A DNA stretch of 64,000 nucleotides, taken from assembly GCA_016745035.1 (NCBI GenBank), contig JADGDE010000001.1:1359677-1423676 (forward strand). Direction: 5' to 3'. Each line of letters starts with the position of its first letter. Within the stretch, counting starts at the first letter, position 1. Positions 4,122-58,801 of the stretch are shown piece by piece. This DNA comes from Thiotrichales bacterium. GTDB lineage: Bacteria; Pseudomonadota; Gammaproteobacteria; Beggiatoales; Beggiatoaceae. A program made the translations under genes and the position numbers. The notes under the pieces were generated by a model that saw only the letters and a program-made list of their open reading frames with translations, made no database searches and had not been told where the DNA came from.

Positions 4122-5234
4122 ATGATTAAACTTCTGGGTGCATTTTTCTTAGCATTGGGGCTGATAGGCGCAGCTTTATTAGGCGTGGTTTACCAAATTT
4201 GGTTAAGCTCGCCTTGGCAATTGCTATGGCTACCGATTACTGTGGTGGCTTTGTTGTTAATGGTCGCTTATCTGACTTATGCCGAGCGTAAAATTATCGG
4301 CTATATGCAAATCCGTATCGGGCCTAACCGTGTTGGTCCTCGGGGTTGGCTGCAACCGATTGCCGATTCCATCAAGCTGATTTGTAAAGAAATAATCCTC
4401 CCGGCTAAATCTAACCGTTTTCTATTTATTATCGCCCCCGCGTTGGCAATGGCTCCAGCACTTGCCGCTTGGGCTGTGATTCCTTTTGATGATGGCTGGG
4501 TGTTCGCCGATATTAATGCCGCGCTTTTATACTTACTGGCGATGACTTCTCTTGGGGTCTACGGTGTGATTATCGCCGGCTGGGCCTCTAACTCTAAATA
4601 TGCCTTTCTAGGTGCGATTCGTTCCACCGCACAAATCGTCTCATATGAAATCGCTATGGGCTTTGCTTTGGTTGGTGTCCTGATGGCATCTGGCAGCTTG
4701 AACTTGGGTGATATTGTTCGCGCACAATCAGGCTCTCATGGCATACTCGATTGGTTCTGGTTGCCCTTACTGCCTTTATTTGTGGTCTATTTTATCTCTG
4801 GGGTCGCTGAGACTAACCGCGCACCGTTCGATGTCGCCGAGGGTGAATCTGAAATTGTCGCCGGTTTCCACGTTGAATACTCAGGCATGTTGTTTGCCGT
4901 ATTCTTCCTTGCAGAATACCTCAATATGATCTTAATTGCAGCGCTGACTAGCATCATGTTCTTAGGTGGCTGGCTCTCACCATTTGCAGACACCCCTTTA
5001 GAAAGCTTATTTGCATGGGTTCCAGGCGTGGCTTGGTTATTCCTTAAAACCAGCATTTTCTTATTCTTATTCCTCTGGTTCCGTGCCACCTTCCCGCGTT
5101 ATCGCTATGACCAAATCATGCGTTTGGGTTGGAAAGTCTTTATTCCGTTGACCATTGTTTGGATTTTGGTCTTAGGCGTGATGGTTGTCTCTGAGTTTGC
5201 ATGGTTTGCACCCGCCGTTAGTAGCACAGTCTAA
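4122..5234 (+). CDS. nuoH: NADH-quinone oxidoreductase subunit H
   Basis: This is a membrane subunit of complex I at the junction of the two arms; it forms much of the quinone chamber. The 370-aa protein has about eight hydrophobic segments. It carries the conserved [22 protein letters not shown] loop, split here by its usual position after TM1, and the acidic [15 protein letters not shown] loop that contacts the quinone channel. It sits in the order G-H-I as in other nuo operons, 37 bp after nuoG and 12 bp before nuoI. Confidence 0.97.
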
Positions 5235-18983: not shown

Positions 18984-19336
18984 GGGGGCGACCTGGTTTC
19001 GACGTGGGTTGCAAAACTTGAAGGGCATGTCGAGGGGCAGTATTCCTCGTAAATCTTAACTGCACATTTATTAGTTGCCAACGACGACAACTTCGCTCTA
19101 GCAGCATAATGCTAGACCCTTGCCCTACCGGGCTTGTACGCTAGACGCAAGGGTAATACTTACAAGATCGTTCAGGGTGGTGTGCGAACGCACTGAATTA
19201 AACTTAAACGTAATCGCGCTCCAATTACCCTGCCAGTCGGGTGATTTTAGCGTTAAATATAATAGACGCGGCTAAGCATGTAGAACTGATAGCAGAGGAC
19301 TTGCGGACGCGGGTTCGATTCCCGCCGCCTCCACTT
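18984..19336 (+). ncRNA. ssrA: tmRNA (SsrA)
   Basis: This RNA rescues stalled ribosomes with SmpB. The 5' end GGGGGCG pairs with CGCCTCC near the 3' end to form the acceptor stem, and GGGTTCGATTCCC is the T-arm. The tag reading frame at 19077-19109 is GCC AAC GAC GAC AAC TTC GCT CTA GCA GCA TAA, giving ANDDNFALAA, a typical gammaproteobacterial degradation tag. After the discriminator A (19333) the DNA reads CTTTTT instead of CCA, because a prophage is integrated here; the CCA remains at the right attachment site (58801-58803). Confidence 0.96.
19311..19334. repeat. attL core (24 bp)
   Basis: GGGTTCGATTCCCGCC plus GCCTCCAC at the 3' end of ssrA is repeated exactly at 58778-58801. The flanks differ on both sides (c versus t before; ttttt versus cactt after). 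This is the crossover region of the prophage, covering the T-arm and acceptor strand of tmRNA. Confidence 0.95.
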
Positions 19337-19382
19337 TTTAACCATTGATTTATAAAGGAAAAGTCAGGCATATTATGTCGGG

Positions 19383-19412
19383 TTGGCTGTAAATTGGCTG
19401 TAAATTGGCTGT
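19383..19412. repeat. Three 11-bp-phased repeats at the left phage end (arm-type sites)
   Basis: TTGGCTGT occurs at 19383, 19394 and 19405, each separated by AAA, so the period is 11 bp, about one helical turn. Related copies lie at the other phage end (58665-58683). This is what arm-type integrase or excisionase sites look like. A separate hairpin (AACCTAGA/TCTAGGTT, 19458-19477) lies further in. I see no convincing gene between 19341 and 19600. Confidence 0.75.
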
Positions 19413-19600
19413 TGAGCCTAAAATTTTCATCTCTTGAAATTCCTCAAAATCATTAAAAACCTAGATCCCTCTAGGTTCCCACTATTATTTTTTCATTCCT
19501 TTGAATTTCAGAAAAAAAAAACACGTAAAATCCGAAGGCAAATGGAGGAGAGCGGATTTAAGCTTCCGTGCTTTCTTCTGATGGACAAATCTCAGACAAC

Positions 19601-19640
19601 AAAAAACCCCACACTAGGCAACCGGTGCGGGGTTTTTTTT
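19601..19640. terminator. Bidirectional terminator at the left phage end
   Basis: CCCC (19607-19610) with following CAC pairs with GTG..GGGG (up to 19632). A run of As lies on the left and eight Ts on the right, so it can act on both strands. It would insulate ssrA and the phage end from each other. Confidence 0.8.
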
Positions 19641-19663
19641 GTGACTTAAGCTGGCGTATGGAA

Positions 19664-19810
19664 TTATGGATTAATACCTTTCTCGGTGATCCAAAGCTCA
19701 TATCTTGAAGGTAATGTTACAAGCCCCTCATTCCCCCTTACTTTGGTGACTGCAAGTTGACCACCTCTAATCCCCATATACTCAAGCCGACCTAAAATAC
19801 GACAGGTCAA
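19664..19810 (-). CDS. Possible small protein overlapping the HTH gene end
   Basis: An open frame of 48 codons starts at a TTG (19810) that overlaps the TGA of the HTH gene. It encodes LTCRILGRLEYMGIRGGQ, then LVTLPSRYELWITEKGINP. The end looks like the close of a winged-helix domain (WITEKG). An internal ATG would give 36 residues. No separate ribosome site is obvious, so coupling to the upstream gene would be needed. It ends just before the bidirectional terminator. Confidence 0.35.
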   Translation of the reverse strand: MTCRILGRLEYMGIRGGQLAVTKVRGNEGLVTLPSRYELWITEKGINP

Positions 19811-20067
19811 GCATTATTTTTTTGTTGCTTCCAAAGTCGCCAATATTCCCGATTCAATCCGCTATCTTCACGCCCTGCAAGCCATTGGTCATAGCTGTCT
19901 GTATTTAAGAGAATGGCTATATTTTCTTTTGTATCGGTGGGAATTTCTGTTTTTCCAGATTCCCAGCGCTCCCATGTTCTTTTGCTTACGCCGCCAATCA
20001 AATCGGCTGCTTGTTCTGTTTTCATCATAAGAATAAGGCGTGCAGCTTTTAGAGTAATTCGATCCAT
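19807..20067 (-). CDS. Aca2/YdiL-like helix-turn-helix regulator
   Basis: The 86-aa protein (MDRITLKAARLILMM...) has an HTH with AADLIGGVSKRTWERWESGKTEIP, given here across its two helices. It resembles the N-terminal part of YdiL (DUF1870) proteins and, from memory, the anti-CRISPR-associated repressor Aca2 (..SARSWQYWESGRSAVP). I chose the ATG at 20067 because AGAGAGG precedes it; the frame stays open to 20100. The gene is divergent from the 443-aa protein gene, and both promoters carry TGTCGCA dyads. It is probably an autoregulator and repressor of its divergent neighbour. Confidence 0.75.
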   Translation of the reverse strand: MDRITLKAARLILMMKTEQAADLIGGVSKRTWERWESGKTEIPTDTKENIAILLNTDSYDQWLAGREDSGLNREYWRLWKQQKNNA

Positions 20068-20092
20068 TTTTTTATAACCTCTCTTTTCCCAT

Positions 20093-20171
20093 TGTCGCAT
20101 ATTATGACACAGACAGAGATAGCTATCAAGCTAAATAAAAGCTTGACTTGTCGCAATTTGCGACATATAAT
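20093..20171. promoter_or_regulatory. Divergent promoters with two TGTCGCA dyad operators
   Basis: The plus promoter is TTGACT (20143-20148) and TATAAT (20166-20171). Its 17-bp spacer is exactly the perfect palindrome TGTCGCAATTTGCGACA (20149-20165). The minus promoter reads TTGATA (complement of 20124-20129), a 17-bp spacer, and CATAAT (complement of 20101-20106). That -10 lies inside a second, imperfect dyad TGTCGCATATTATGACA (20093-20109). One repressor could thus control both directions. A short hairpin (GCGGC-AATG-GCCGC, 20193-20206) precedes the ribosome site of the plus gene. Confidence 0.85.
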
Positions 20172-20220
20172 AGATTCCAAGTTAAAGCTAACGCGGCAAT
20201 GGCCGCCAAGGAAACATAAA

Positions 20221-21552
20221 ATGACTACTCATTACAAACGCATTCGTAAAAACGCAAACAAAAAAATTGCAGCATTAATCGAATCAGCTAAAAGCATTGT
20301 TTTTCATGGTAACAGTGTGCAAGTAGATGATAGCTATGAGTCTTATGAGTTTGTTGAAGAAGATTCCAGCAATGTTTTTGATTTTATGACCCAATACTAT
20401 GGCACGCTAACCATTTATGCGGTTTATGAAAATGAAGAAATGATTGCTGTTGAAATTAAAAATTATGATTACTACTGGGGCAATACCTATGAACTTAAAC
20501 TTGTTGAAGAAGTAAAAGATGAAATTATCGAAGAAGCCTCCGAAGAAGAAGCCGAGCAAGCACCAGCCCCAATGGCTCAAAATTTAGACCTCAAACAAGG
20601 TGACATCATCACCGTAGATTTTCCTGCTTTGAATAAAAATGACTCTTTAGAAATGTATAAAAAAGAATTAAATAACGGCTCTTTTCAATCCTTATCACAA
20701 GTTGAAAAATTAATTAAGGTAAACCAAAAAGAATGGGACAAATTAACTAACAGCTTTTTGGTTGATTCCGAGTTGTGGGAAAATATCGGCGGCAAAAAAT
20801 ACACAGGAAATAATCAAGAGGTTATTAATTCTCTTGATAAATTTTGGGAAATGTCAGATGTTTTGTGGGCAGAATTTCATAAAAACTCATTAACTAATGT
20901 GGTGCTTCTTGAAAATACAGAAACAGGCGAAAAAATTGCCATTGATACCTCAGGTCATGGTTATGCTCGCTATGTCGGTTTTATTATTTCAGTAGAAGAA
21001 AAAGAACCAAAAGGGGAAAAAGGACAAGCCCCCAAAAAGCTCAACTTAAGCGCAAAAGATAAAGAAGTATTAAACGAATTAAAGGGCGTAATTAAAACGG
21101 CCAGCGATGGCTACAGCTTAAAACAATACTGGCAAGGCGCGGGCGATGAACACGAAATTAAAAACACCATGTTTTTAATCGCAAATTTTGGAACATTAGA
21201 CGACTTGGCAGAAATGGTTTTTATTCGTGACGGGATGGACAAGCAAGGCAAACTCTCACATGCCCAGCGCTCAAAGTTAGACGAATTTCAAGGTGAATAT
21301 TTTCCTTTATTCCATCAACAACAAACCGGGGTGGATTGCTTTGTATTTACGCCCAGCAAAGCGGTAAATAAGCCCGAAACCAAGAAAGCCAAAGTCAAGA
21401 CAAAGCCTAAGAAATTAAAGGCAAACAAAACAAAAATAGCCAAACCTAAAACAAAGAAACCCAAGGCAGCCAAAGCCAAGAAAAATAAGCCGAAATCTAA
21501 ACAGAAAACCAACGTGATACGAGTTGATTTTAGGAAAAAATCTAACAGATAA
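20221..21552 (+). CDS. Unknown phage-end protein with acidic linker and histone-H1-like tail
   Basis: The 443-aa product has three parts. An N-terminal domain (1-100) starts MTTHYKRIRKNANKK and is rich in Tyr and acidic residues. An acidic linker (EEVKDEIIEEASEEEAEQ) follows. A middle domain (about 115-375) contains NGGSFQSL-type and GHGYARYVGFII segments. The last about 60 residues are Lys/Pro/Ala-rich (KKPKAAKAKKNKPKSKQK), like histone H1 or other non-specific DNA-binding tails. The ATG at 20221 has AAGGA 8 bp upstream; an earlier in-frame ATG lies before the -10 and is unlikely. I recognise no family. Strong regulated promoter and phage-end location suggest a moron or lysogeny-expressed gene. 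Confidence 0.75.
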   Translation: MTTHYKRIRKNANKKIAALIESAKSIVFHGNSVQVDDSYESYEFVEEDSSNVFDFMTQYYGTLTIYAVYENEEMIAVEIKNYDYYWGNTYELKLVEEVKDEIIEEASEEEAEQAPAPMAQNLDLKQGDIITVDFPALNKNDSLEMYKKELNNGSFQSLSQVEKLIKVNQKEWDKLTNSFLVDSELWENIGGKKYTGNNQEVINSLDKFWEMSDVLWAEFHKNSLTNVVLLENTETGEKIAIDTSGHGYARYVGFIISVEEKEPKGEKGQAPKKLNLSAKDKEVLNELKGVIKTASDGYSLKQYWQGAGDEHEIKNTMFLIANFGTLDDLAEMVFIRDGMDKQGKLSHAQRSKLDEFQGEYFPLFHQQQTGVDCFVFTPSKAVNKPETKKAKVKTKPKKLKANKTKIAKPKTKKPKAAKAKKNKPKSKQKTNVIRVDFRKKSNR

Positions 21553-21558
21553 AAAGGC

Positions 21559-21594
21559 GAAAAAATCAAAGCCAAGAACACTGGCTTTGATTTG
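21559..21594. terminator. Terminator between convergent genes (end of the late operon)
   Basis: AATCAAAGCCA (21564-21574) and TGGCTTTGATT (21582-21592) form an 11-bp stem with a 7-nt loop. On the minus strand the stem is followed by a T-run (complement of the As at 21559-21565). It overlaps the last codons of the methyltransferase gene and can also serve the convergent plus-strand gene. Confidence 0.8.
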
Positions 21595-22624
21595 GGATTG
21601 CGGGGAATAACAAGGGCTTGGGCGTGGGATGTTCGATCCGAGCTTTTGCTGTTGAATAATAGGCTTGATTGAGTTCTATACCGATAAAACGCCGCCCATT
21701 TGCCAAAGCAGCCACCCCAGTGGAGCCTGTGCCCATAAACGAGTCTAACACCACGGCATCGGACTTGGTGCTGGTGTTGATAACGTGAGATAGCAAATCT
21801 TGTGGTTTTTCGCAGGGGTGCTTGCCTTGGTAAAAAGCCACGGGGTCAAATTGCCAAACGTCAGTATAAGGGACTTCAGGGGATACAGAAAAAGGGCGGC
21901 GTAGGTCTTCATATTCGCAGCGTAGGTCTTCATATTCGCGGCGTAAGTCTTCATATTCACGGCGTAGGTATTTACCCACACCCAATTGATTAAAACAACG
22001 GCGCAAAGCCTGATAGTTTTCGGCTGTTGGCATCGCCCATTGTGAGTTGGTGAAGGTGTGACGGGCGACGACATAGCGCGGCAAGTCATGAGCGGCAAAC
22101 CAGTCTTGTATCTGTTTATTTAAAACCTTAGCGCGTACCTTTTCAGATTCAAAATAAGCCCGTAACGGCTCAAAAACAAACCCACGTAATTGGTCGCACT
22201 TGGTTTGATAGCCCGCCCCACTTTTGGCGATGTTATCAGCGCCATGATGTTCGGCAAAAATAATGCGCTCCGAAGATGGAAAGAAACCACGCAAAGATGC
22301 CTTGTTTGCTTTGCTCCAGCGTCCAGTGGTTTTTGCCCAGATGATGTTATTCAAGATATTAAACCGCTTCGATAGCATCACTTCCACCCGTGCTGCCATT
22401 TGCGGCGATGCGAAACAGTATAACGAGCCGTTGGGTTTTAGAACCCGCCGCCATTCGGTGGCAACCGCATCAAGCCATGCTAGAAACTGTTCGGCTTTGC
22501 CCCACTGCTTGTCCCATGCTTCGTTTTTTACTTTAAAATAAGGCGGGTCGCTCAAAATTAGATCGACACTGTTGTCGGCTAAGGTCGGTAAAATTTGCAG
22601 GCAATCGCCTTGGTGTAAGCTCAT
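21566..22624 (-). CDS. Phage DNA methyltransferase (DPPY type)
   Basis: The 352-aa protein has the catalytic motif DLILSDPPYFKVKNEAWD (about residue 30) and, near the C-terminus, the AdoMet-binding motif VVLDSFMGTGSTGVAA. This order, catalytic motif first, is that of beta-class amino-methyltransferases (N6-adenine or N4-cytosine). A heptad EYEDLRR is repeated about three times in the middle (encoded by 21-bp DNA repeats at 21901-21970). The start at 22624 overlaps the D stop (ATGA) and follows GGGGGAAAG; the frame is open 15 codons further. No restriction enzyme is nearby, so it likely protects phage DNA. It is the last gene of the late operon. Confidence 0.9.
   Translation of the reverse strand: MSLHQGDCLQILPTLADNSVDLILSDPPYFKVKNEAWDKQWGKAEQFLAWLDAVATEWRRVLKPNGSLYCFASPQMAARVEVMLSKRFNILNNIIWAKTTGRWSKANKASLRGFFPSSERIIFAEHHGADNIAKSGAGYQTKCDQLRGFVFEPLRAYFESEKVRAKVLNKQIQDWFAAHDLPRYVVARHTFTNSQWAMPTAENYQALRRCFNQLGVGKYLRREYEDLRREYEDLRCEYEDLRRPFSVSPEVPYTDVWQFDPVAFYQGKHPCEKPQDLLSHVINTSTKSDAVVLDSFMGTGSTGVAALANGRRFIGIELNQAYYSTAKARIEHPTPKPLLFPAIPNQSQCSWL
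21901..21970. repeat. 21-bp tandem repeats inside the methyltransferase gene
   Basis: Three full units of 21 bp (GTAGGTCTTCATATTCGCRGC with small changes) and part of a fourth start at 21901, 21922 and 21943. Each encodes one REYEDLR heptad, so gain or loss of a unit keeps the frame and changes a helical spacer or the target-recognition region. Confidence 0.85.
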
Positions 22625-23367
22625 ACTTTCCCCCGTACATGCGTAAAAAACCCTGTACCAACCCGCCAATCATGCCGCGCATAACTCAAACTGAATTGCT
22701 TAGATTGCACCACCAGCGCCACCCCCGCTTTATACAGTGCTTGCCCTTGCGTTTTCAGCGACAAATGTCCGTTTGCATGATTGATTTTCAATAAGTCGTT
22801 ATCCAAGCGTTTATGGGTATAAATGGGCAAACTTTGCCCCGATGCGGTTTTCCCGTTTTTACTCACAAACACCAAACGCCCAGCGCTCAGTTTGACGATA
22901 GCGCCAAACTCAGTACCAAGGCGGCTGATTAGATTTATATCGGACTCATTGAACTGTTGCCGGTGTGCAATTAGTTGGCTGGCTAAATCAGCACTAATTG
23001 CCGCTTTTAAGCCGTGTTCCCTAGCAATTGAATTGATGATATTGCTTAGCGTGGTTTCGTGCCAATCGCGGTATTTTTTCACCCGCAAACTCGGTGCATA
23101 AGCCCCGCGCCCGACAATGGTCTGGCTGGCATCTAGCTCGATGGGCGTGGTGACCACATAAGCGCCCATGTCCACATCATCAAAAAAAACTTGGATGCTG
23201 GCACTAGCTTCTGGCAAAGCTAAAGCCCCGTTTTGGTTGTTTAGCACGATCTGTAGTTTATCGGCTTTGATACCGTCCCAGTCTTCAATCAGCACCCGTT
23301 TTAAATACTGAGAAAACAAGGCGCTTTTGTCCTTGCCATTAACGACTATTTTTATAGTCAATCCCAT
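22621..23367 (-). CDS. D: P2 gpD-like late control / tail tip protein
   Basis: The 248-aa protein belongs to the gpD family of the baseplate hub (cell-puncturing platform). It has the typical opening with KIVVNGKDKSALFSQYL and VLIEDWDGIKADKLQIVL. The middle has a conserved SIAREHGLKAAISADLASQ and SDINLISRLGTEFGAIVKL. It overlaps gene X by 10 bp and the methyltransferase by 4 bp, so the tail genes U, X, D and the methyltransferase are translationally coupled. Confidence 0.88.
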   Translation of the reverse strand: MGLTIKIVVNGKDKSALFSQYLKRVLIEDWDGIKADKLQIVLNNQNGALALPEASASIQVFFDDVDMGAYVVTTPIELDASQTIVGRGAYAPSLRVKKYRDWHETTLSNIINSIAREHGLKAAISADLASQLIAHRQQFNESDINLISRLGTEFGAIVKLSAGRLVFVSKNGKTASGQSLPIYTHKRLDNDLLKINHANGHLSLKTQGQALYKAGVALVVQSKQFSLSYARHDWRVGTGFFTHVRGKV

Positions 23368-44330: not shown

Positions 44331-46079
44331 CTAGTGTTTGCGATTTTTACTGTAGGTTAGCTGTGCCTTTTCAGCACAACTTTTACAGCGGCAAGCGTTG
44401 TAAGTGCGCACAATAAAATCACTGCCACAATCCTTGCAAGTGTCTACAAAGCCTACCCGTCCTTTGCCAGAAACTTGTGACAAAGAAGGGGGCACACGCT
44501 CATAATCTTTGTAGACAATACCATCCTCGCCAGCCGCGCCTATACCAGCCGCGCCTATACCAGCCGCGCCTATACCAGCCGCGCCTACACCAGCCGCGCT
44601 TGGGTCAGCAGCGCTATTGCGGTGCAGCGCGTTGAGTTCATCAATCAACCCGGGTGATATTTTTTCCAGCGCCGCCGCTGCGCCCGAATTGAGTACCGCC
44701 TCATCGGCGTGCGCATGTACCAAACCATCGGTTTGCACCCAGCCGCCTTGTTTCAATTGCGGGGCGGTTTTGGCGTGTGGCACAGGCTCAGCACCGACAG
44801 CAAAAGCACCGCTTAACGCCTGCTTGATATGAGCAGAGGCATCCACACCTAACAGCTCAAGCCCGCGCAAAACCCGCCGATTCTCAGCGCGTTTGTCACC
44901 GCCTGCGATGTTGCGCAGCATCTGCGCCACGATTAAACCAATCACCGCGATTAAATCAAAAATAAACGCCCAGACCATCCACTTCAACCAACTAGCGGTT
45001 TCAGCACTGACATCGAAAAACCGAGACAACATTCTATCCTCAGCCTTCCACTGGCTTTTGATGCCCTGGCCACTTTCAGACAACGCCGCCCGATCCTTTT
45101 CAAGCTTCACCAAATGGTTTTGCAAGCCCTTATATTCCGCGTGCTTGTCGGCGTAATCTGTGCCGCTAAACAACGCCGTCGGCAACTGCGCCTCTAGTGC
45201 TGATTTTTGCTGCTGATACGCGGCGCTCATTGCCTCCCATTCGGGGCACAACTGCCGCGCCTTGGTACGAAAAAATAGCCCATTACCATCGGTTTTGGGG
45301 CTGCAATCACTGTGCATAAACTTGGAAAAGCGACTAGGAAAACTGGGGGGCACTAAAGCGGCTAATTGCTGCTTAATCTCCGCCGTTTTTGCCTGCGCCG
45401 CTGCCACGCTTTGATTATGTGCCTGTGTTTCCGAGTGGGCTTTTTCGGCATCGGCAAAGGTTGCCATGCCGCGCAAACGCTCACGGGTAATGCTTATTTC
45501 ATTGTCTAAAGCTTGTGCTGGGGCTGAGGATTCCAGCCGTACTTGTGCCCCGTTGCCACTTTCGTTGACCAACTCAAACAAAGACGTACCCAATAAAGAC
45601 CCCGTAGTGACAAGGCTCACGACAATGGTTAAACCCAACAACAAGCCGTTGCCCTGCTGCCAAGCGTTGACCGCTGCGGGTAAAATCCTATCGCGCATGA
45701 TAACCATGCCAATGAAACCAAGGCAGAAAAACCAGCGCACCAAATTATCATCCGGTGCTTTCCAAGCCCAAACCAAAGTCAGCACCACCGACAACAAAAC
45801 CAACATCCAAACCGCCGCATGAATCCAGCGGGCTTGGGATAAAGTCGCCAATTGTTCGCTCTCGCTTAAAGCTTTTTGGCGGTTTTTAAAGCTCTGCTGT
45901 ACCGAGGCAAAAAAGCCCGACTTAAATCCCAAAGCCAATAAACCCAACAACAACAGCGTGCCGATAATCACCACCACAGGCGTGATGGATGCAGTGGTAT
46001 CCAAGCGCTGATAAGCATCGGAAATGAACACATAGCCGAAACCGAAAACCAGCAATAACAAGCCATAACGAATAATCAT
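44331..46079 (-). CDS. Large membrane protein of unknown function with zinc-ribbon C-terminus
   Basis: The 582-aa protein closes the AlpA-led operon. It has five hydrophobic helices in residues 1-175 and a coiled region (about 190-360) with two Cys (HSDCS, RQLCPEW). A further membrane segment follows near 370-395 (WMVWAFIFDLIAVIGLIVAQ). The C-terminal 170 residues contain VHAHADEAVLNSGAAAALE, which resembles a motif I know from tape-measure C-termini. A GAAGI repeat and a four-Cys zinc ribbon (CKDCG ... CRCKSC) complete it. No Walker A motif is seen, so it is not a Zot-like ATPase. Start overlaps the 49-aa gene (ATGA). Confidence 0.72.
   Translation of the reverse strand: MIIRYGLLLLVFGFGYVFISDAYQRLDTTASITPVVVIIGTLLLLGLLALGFKSGFFASVQQSFKNRQKALSESEQLATLSQARWIHAAVWMLVLLSVVLTLVWAWKAPDDNLVRWFFCLGFIGMVIMRDRILPAAVNAWQQGNGLLLGLTIVVSLVTTGSLLGTSLFELVNESGNGAQVRLESSAPAQALDNEISITRERLRGMATFADAEKAHSETQAHNQSVAAAQAKTAEIKQQLAALVPPSFPSRFSKFMHSDCSPKTDGNGLFFRTKARQLCPEWEAMSAAYQQQKSALEAQLPTALFSGTDYADKHAEYKGLQNHLVKLEKDRAALSESGQGIKSQWKAEDRMLSRFFDVSAETASWLKWMVWAFIFDLIAVIGLIVAQMLRNIAGGDKRAENRRVLRGLELLGVDASAHIKQALSGAFAVGAEPVPHAKTAPQLKQGGWVQTDGLVHAHADEAVLNSGAAAALEKISPGLIDELNALHRNSAADPSAAGVGAAGIGAAGIGAAGIGAAGEDGIVYKDYERVPPSLSQVSGKGRVGFVDTCKDCGSDFIVRTYNACRCKSCAEKAQLTYSKNRKH
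44530..44599. repeat. 15-bp tandem repeat inside the membrane-protein gene
   Basis: Four near-identical units CCAGCCGCGCCTATA (44530, 44545, 44560, 44575) and a partial fifth encode the peptide GAAGI repeatedly. Unit length is a multiple of three, so slippage changes linker length without breaking the frame. Confidence 0.88.
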
Positions 46080-58777: not shown

Positions 58778-58801
58778 GGGTTCGATTCCCGCCGCCTCCA
58801 C
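58778..58801. repeat. attR core (24 bp)
   Basis: An exact copy of the ssrA 3' end core. It is followed by CACTTTCC, so the sequence through the junction reads CCTCCACCA, i.e. the discriminator A and the CCA of the uninterrupted tmRNA gene. It marks the right end of the prophage. Confidence 0.95.

Follow-up and report, generated by a model that had tools for sequence, protein, structure and literature searches.

Aca repressors serve as bait for finding anti-CRISPRs. Aca2 represses through inverted repeats located inside the core promoter (PMC8434428, PMC9410906), with R30 as a key DNA-binding residue (PMC8434428), and its structure has been solved with bound RNA (PMC11239489). In the acrIF8-aca2 operon of Pectobacterium phage ZF40, aca2 (PF08965) is located downstream inside the operon, and the promoter, TTGCTT-GTTCGCGATTGCGAACA-TATAAT, has a palindromic operator filling its -35/-10 spacer, together with a second dyad and a leader hairpin. 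The Aca2-like operon of Pasteurella phage CFP3 (Peduoviridae), a P2-like phage, has the promoter TTGACT-GGTCGTAATTGCGACCA-TATAAT and begins with a small upstream ORF. A further point of comparison is the class of polyvalent proteins, which combine at least two disparate domains from the polyvalent set and are injected along with the DNA. They belong to phages and conjugative elements and have been proposed to counter defences and to aid establishment (Iyer 2017, PMC5512222).

We analysed a stretch of 64,000 nucleotides (the window) carrying a P2-like prophage with a related regulatory locus near one of its ends. The prophage is bounded by 24-bp direct att repeats (19311-19334 and 58778-58801), the first of which is the 3' end of tmRNA, where the prophage is integrated. 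Its genes include those for tail proteins D and U, the small and large terminase subunits, capsid, protease, and portal; a 582-aa prophage protein (44331-46079) has no PHROG match. The integrase and a C-like repressor are encoded at the end opposite to the locus, which has gene D and a DNA methyltransferase gene on one side and attL on the other. Accessory genes of P2-like phages occupy this region, between gene D and the att end. The att repeats bear out the phage-end location given by an earlier reading made from the letters alone (the sequence-only reading). The locus is composed of the following features:

19807-20067, minus strand: predicted HTH repressor of 86 aa, Aca2/YdiL family (PF08965), with a shortened C-terminal half
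20093-20109, no strand: predicted operator O2, imperfect dyad TGTCGCATATTATGACA with 3 mismatches to O1, over the -10 of the HTH gene
20101-20129, minus strand: promoter of the HTH gene, TTGATA-17-CATAAT, 10 of 12 consensus positions, containing O2
20143-20171, plus strand: promoter of the 443-aa gene, TTGACT-17-TATAAT, 11 of 12 consensus positions
20149-20165, no strand: predicted operator O1, perfect palindrome TGTCGCAATTTGCGACA, filling the -35/-10 spacer in the geometry of an Aca2 operator
20193-20206, plus strand: leader hairpin GCGGC-AATG-GCCGC, a possible second, RNA-level site, ending beside the Shine-Dalgarno sequence
20221-21552, plus strand: ORF of the 443-aa target protein
21566-22669, minus strand: N6/N4 DNA methyltransferase (PF01555, 3.5e-42), tail-to-tail with the 443-aa gene; context, and a putative partner at most

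The methyltransferase contains in-frame repeats of EYEDLRR units (21880-21970). Compared with known Aca2 loci, the locus is unusual in its divergent layout, in its shortened HTH protein, and in having a target other than a small acr-like gene.

The HTH protein is assigned to the Aca2/YdiL family. PF08965 (Aca2_YdiL) matched it with an E-value of 2.3e-9 and 37.9 bits (cut-off, 23.8 bits), although only over residues 1-53, and the nearest solved structures were four PDB entries, all of them Aca2; the resemblance noted in the sequence-only reading was thereby corroborated. A tblastn search recovered ZF40 Aca2 itself and relatives from Pasteurella phages. The HTH half is 42% identical to that of ZF40 Aca2 over 45 aa and has the same recognition residues. 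All seven residues that are invariant in ten Aca2-like proteins are kept, R30 included, and R30, W32, W35, E36, G38, and P43 are common to the protein and ten aligned relatives. The window protein has 86 residues, whereas ZF40 Aca2 has 116. The C-terminal dimerisation domain, which takes up about 60 aa after the HTH, is unmatched in the 86-aa protein (PF08965 model positions 55-118), and a WRL-like remnant was all that could be recognized by eye in its C-terminal half. We therefore filed the protein as an Aca2/YdiL-superfamily HTH protein and not as a canonical two-domain Aca2. It is the only product of a PF08965 gene in the host genome.

The promoter of the 443-aa gene is the top promoter-like site within 19340-21700. 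Between TTGACT (20143-20148) and TATAAT (20166-20171), the 17-bp spacer is occupied exactly by the O1 palindrome, which has 8-bp arms around a central T and in which all eight arm pairs match. The related dyad O2 overlaps the minus-strand -10, CATAAT (20106-20101). On both points, the perfect palindrome in one promoter and the related dyad over the -10 of the other, the sequence-only reading proved accurate. The whole window contains eight distinct perfect palindromes with 8-bp arms and gaps of 0-3 nt (nine were listed, two being one site). A palindromic spacer is found in 2 of its 98 promoter-like sites, all eight pairs being present in the O1 promoter only, and the O1 sequence TGTCGCAnnnTGCGACA has a single copy in the 4.18-Mb host genome and none in shuffles. 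The locus thus has the Aca2-type arrangement of an inverted repeat in the core promoter and a second, similar one.

For comparison, the promoters of Aca2 relatives were extracted (ZF40, CFP3, and about eight further Aca2 operons). A palindrome-filled -35/-10 spacer was found in ZF40, CFP3, Pm86/Pmp12, P. toruni, P. damselae, Serratia, and several IMG/VR phages. The CFP3 promoter is only a few letters apart from TTGACT-TGTCGCAATTTGCGACA-TATAAT of the window, whereas the operator half-site differs from that of ZF40 (TGTCGC in the window and GTTCGC in ZF40). The spacer-filling operator can be regarded as the usual design of the Aca2 family, phage ZF40 included, which confirms the family assignment and makes the palindrome less surprising. 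The regulation of the 443-aa gene by the HTH protein is well supported by this geometry, from which we infer binding and repression. The TGTCGCAnnnTGCGACA dyad by itself is not diagnostic of Aca2, since the viral contigs scanned for it contained many sites with no Aca2-like ORF among the loci examined. Two or three copies are present on the IMG/VR contigs L063, L065, L009, and L076; because no Aca2-like ORF was found nearby, the dyad is probably used there by a different regulator.

The leader of the 443-aa gene also resembles those of Aca2 operons in containing a hairpin. In work by Birkholz et al. from 2024, Aca2 is said to repress translation through a leader stem-loop. In the Aca2 operon leaders, the hairpin comes right after the -10 and has loops such as AUGG, ACGG, AAGGG, and AAUGG. 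The window hairpin is located ~13 nt farther from the -10, and its loop register is different. The probability of its occurrence by chance is about 1.5% for the stem and 3-4% for the stem plus an Aca2-like loop, and the fold of the whole leader has a z-score of -1.55. By analogy with Aca2, the hairpin may mediate RNA-level control; owing to the differences in position and register, we treat it as a lead only.

The 443-aa protein is modular, and was divided as follows (all on the plus strand):

20221-20511, plus strand: domain A, residues 1-97, with relatives in WID42085 of phage ZRG1, in a Vibrio plasmid DUF3560/LPD25 protein, in solo form on three P2-like contigs (L213-215), and in Vibrio phages
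20572-21006, plus strand: domain B, residues 118-262, DUF6329-like, with the motif IDxxGxxYARYVGF, recurring in 48 viral loci and supported by alignment, Pfam contexts, and AF2
21007-21345, plus strand: domain C, residues 263-375, helical, assigned at low confidence from AF2 and searches, in which no relatives were found
21346-21549, plus strand: Lys/Ala/Pro-rich tail, residues 376-443, recognized by composition and disordered in AF2

An acidic linker (residues 98-117, net charge -7) lies between domains A and B, and the 68-residue tail is 38% lysine (net charge +27); both elements had been pointed out in the sequence-only reading. That reading also proposed a search of the protein against phages. 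Searches of phages, plasmids, viral contigs, GTDB contigs, 96 relatives, and 369 class genomes yielded no full-length relative, every relative matching only part of the protein, but domains A and B did recur. In phages and Vibrio plasmids, domain A occurs alone or as part of a larger protein, such as a conjugative-plasmid protein with LPD25/DUF3560 (blastp, 7.8e-11), which was taken as the one example from the Vibrio plasmid matches; some of the others may belong to virulence plasmids of a shrimp pathogen. AF2 prediction of this domain alone was unsuccessful (pLDDT 44). The C-terminal motif NVIxVDFxxR is common to the 443-aa protein (21520-21549) and a 135-aa domain-A protein (L215:4360-4402).

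Domain B, with the family hallmark VDPQGYxYARYVG, occurs as a solo protein (135-162 aa), with LPD29 in SPbeta-like proteins of about 620 aa, and together with DUF4942 in a protein of 1520 aa. DUF6329 (PF19854, a 39-aa model) matches other members, with L182 above the cut-off, but not the window protein itself. The AF2 model of domain B has pLDDT values mostly of 85-98, and a fold search with it matched no solved structure at E<0.001. One match (L219), lying in what by eye is an HldE-like metabolic gene of a chromosome, was rejected as an apparent chance match. In three gammaproteobacterial prophages (L216-L218), domain-B genes have as neighbours a terminase-like gene and one for a ParB-like/N6_N4 methyltransferase. 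A link between domain B and DNA methyltransferases, suggested by the tail-to-tail arrangement in these three genomes, was judged weak because the three appear to represent a single related type of prophage and the methyltransferase is of a different type (ParB-like N-terminus, by eye).

With domain A in an LPD25/DUF3560 protein and domain B in LPD29-containing proteins, the modules are shared with polyvalent proteins, although the window protein has only 443 residues and no recognized LPD or enzymatic domain. It is probably nucleic-acid-associated, the composition of the tail being the one pointer to DNA binding. Searches against PADLOC, NCBIfam, and PDB sequences and folds gave no match. The locus is improbable as a toxin-antitoxin-like or superinfection-exclusion module, in which the HTH protein would be an antitoxin or repressor and the released 443-aa protein would harm the host or rival phages. 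Aca2 shares its structure with the antitoxin MqsA (PMC9410906), and the HTH protein weakly matches the MqsA family, but no toxin or defence family was matched in the family, PADLOC, and NCBIfam searches, the genes are divergent and not co-transcribed, and the product is large and multidomain.

WID42085 of Pseudomonas phage ZRG1 has domains A and B in the same order (31% identity) but comprises 303 residues, without domain C, the Lys tail, or an adjoining Aca2 HTH gene. Its gene is located in the recombination/early region (RecT/SSB/nuclease) of ZRG1. On the three P2-like contigs, the solo domain-A gene comes after gene D, and DnaB is encoded within about 2 kb downstream. These positions and the basic tail would be consistent with an early DNA-metabolism or replication accessory (a recombination or replication helper) and not with counter-defence, a possibility that we regard as doubtful but real. 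In the window, however, the whole structural block lies between the 443-aa gene and the replication genes, and the gene has its own repressor, suggesting an autonomous accessory gene; the gene is also absent from the other genomes searched.

The domain-A relatives provided insight into regulation as well. On the three P2-like contigs, the promoter of the solo gene (TTGCAA-..TAGGACGAAAAGTCCTA..) has a spacer-filling palindrome and a GGCAAGGUGCC leader hairpin. This promoter and leader are repeated ahead of the following gene, so that two successive early genes each have a near-identical promoter with a spacer-filling TAGGACGAAAAGTCCTA dyad and a near-identical leader hairpin (L213:3920-4000 and 4440-4560; L215 likewise). 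A gene for a 102-aa HTH-like protein follows these two genes in L213 and L215. The domain-A gene of a Vibrio phage, which adjoins an MT-A70-annotated gene, has a dyad with 9-bp arms at its promoter. Domain-A genes thus appear repeatedly under operator-bearing promoters, the operator sequences being unrelated, and we consider this the best support for a protein that is silent in the lysogen and wanted early.

The sequence-only reading had expected an anti-defence or lysogeny-specific factor. With an active repressor in the lysogen, the latter would be improbable. The former expectation is supported insofar as the modules of the target are common to proteins of polyvalent type in phages and conjugative plasmids, but not for an anti-CRISPR role in particular. 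Cas1 was not detected in the host genome (99.6% complete); the genes are divergent, whereas in an acr-aca operon transcription runs through acr into aca; and just 3% of the Aca2-like proteins are found downstream of known acr genes (PMC9410906). The anti-CRISPR role is therefore unsupported. An Aca2-type regulator and operator would also be expected of a divergent acr-aca variant with the 443-aa protein as a true, large anti-CRISPR; we consider this very unlikely, as the protein is far above known Acr sizes, has no acr similarity, unlike the ZF40 target acrIF8, and is built from modules that plasmids and phages carry in early or polyvalent contexts that are unrelated. It would be more economical for the protein to counter some other defence or to help incoming DNA become established.

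The reading that we prefer, in which our confidence is evenly balanced, is that the locus is a self-contained control module for an early-entry/counter-defence protein of polyvalent type, repressed and transiently expressed under Aca2-type control. The family, the operators, the promoter geometry, and the modules are the steps supported by the sequence; we infer binding, repression, timing, DNA association, and counter-defence. A dimer of the HTH protein at O1, between -35 and -10, would exclude RNA polymerase from the 443-aa gene, which would consequently be off in the lysogen. By binding O2, the weaker site, over the -10 of its own gene, the HTH protein would limit its own synthesis. With no repressor present, on entry of phage DNA into a new cell or upon induction, both promoters would fire, and the 443-aa protein would be made in a burst until accumulating repressor stopped it. 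The leader hairpin at the ribosome site might further restrain expression at the RNA level, as with Aca2. The 443-aa protein, with domains A and B and its basic tail, would most likely protect or establish the incoming phage DNA, and the defence countered would be restriction-like rather than CRISPR.

A more far-reaching version, which we put forward only tentatively, is that a divergent minimal Aca2 repressor exerts DNA- and RNA-level control over a new anti-defence family of polyvalent type, with a DUF6329-like core that has no solved fold match, and that domain-A genes are a phage "entry gene" placed repeatedly under spacer-palindrome promoters. The pairing, in a divergent layout, of an Aca2-type switch with a modular protein of a very different kind would widen the range of possible targets at "Aca2" loci, and the 443-aa protein is a testable candidate for the function of the widespread, uncharacterised DUF6329/LPD29-linked domain.
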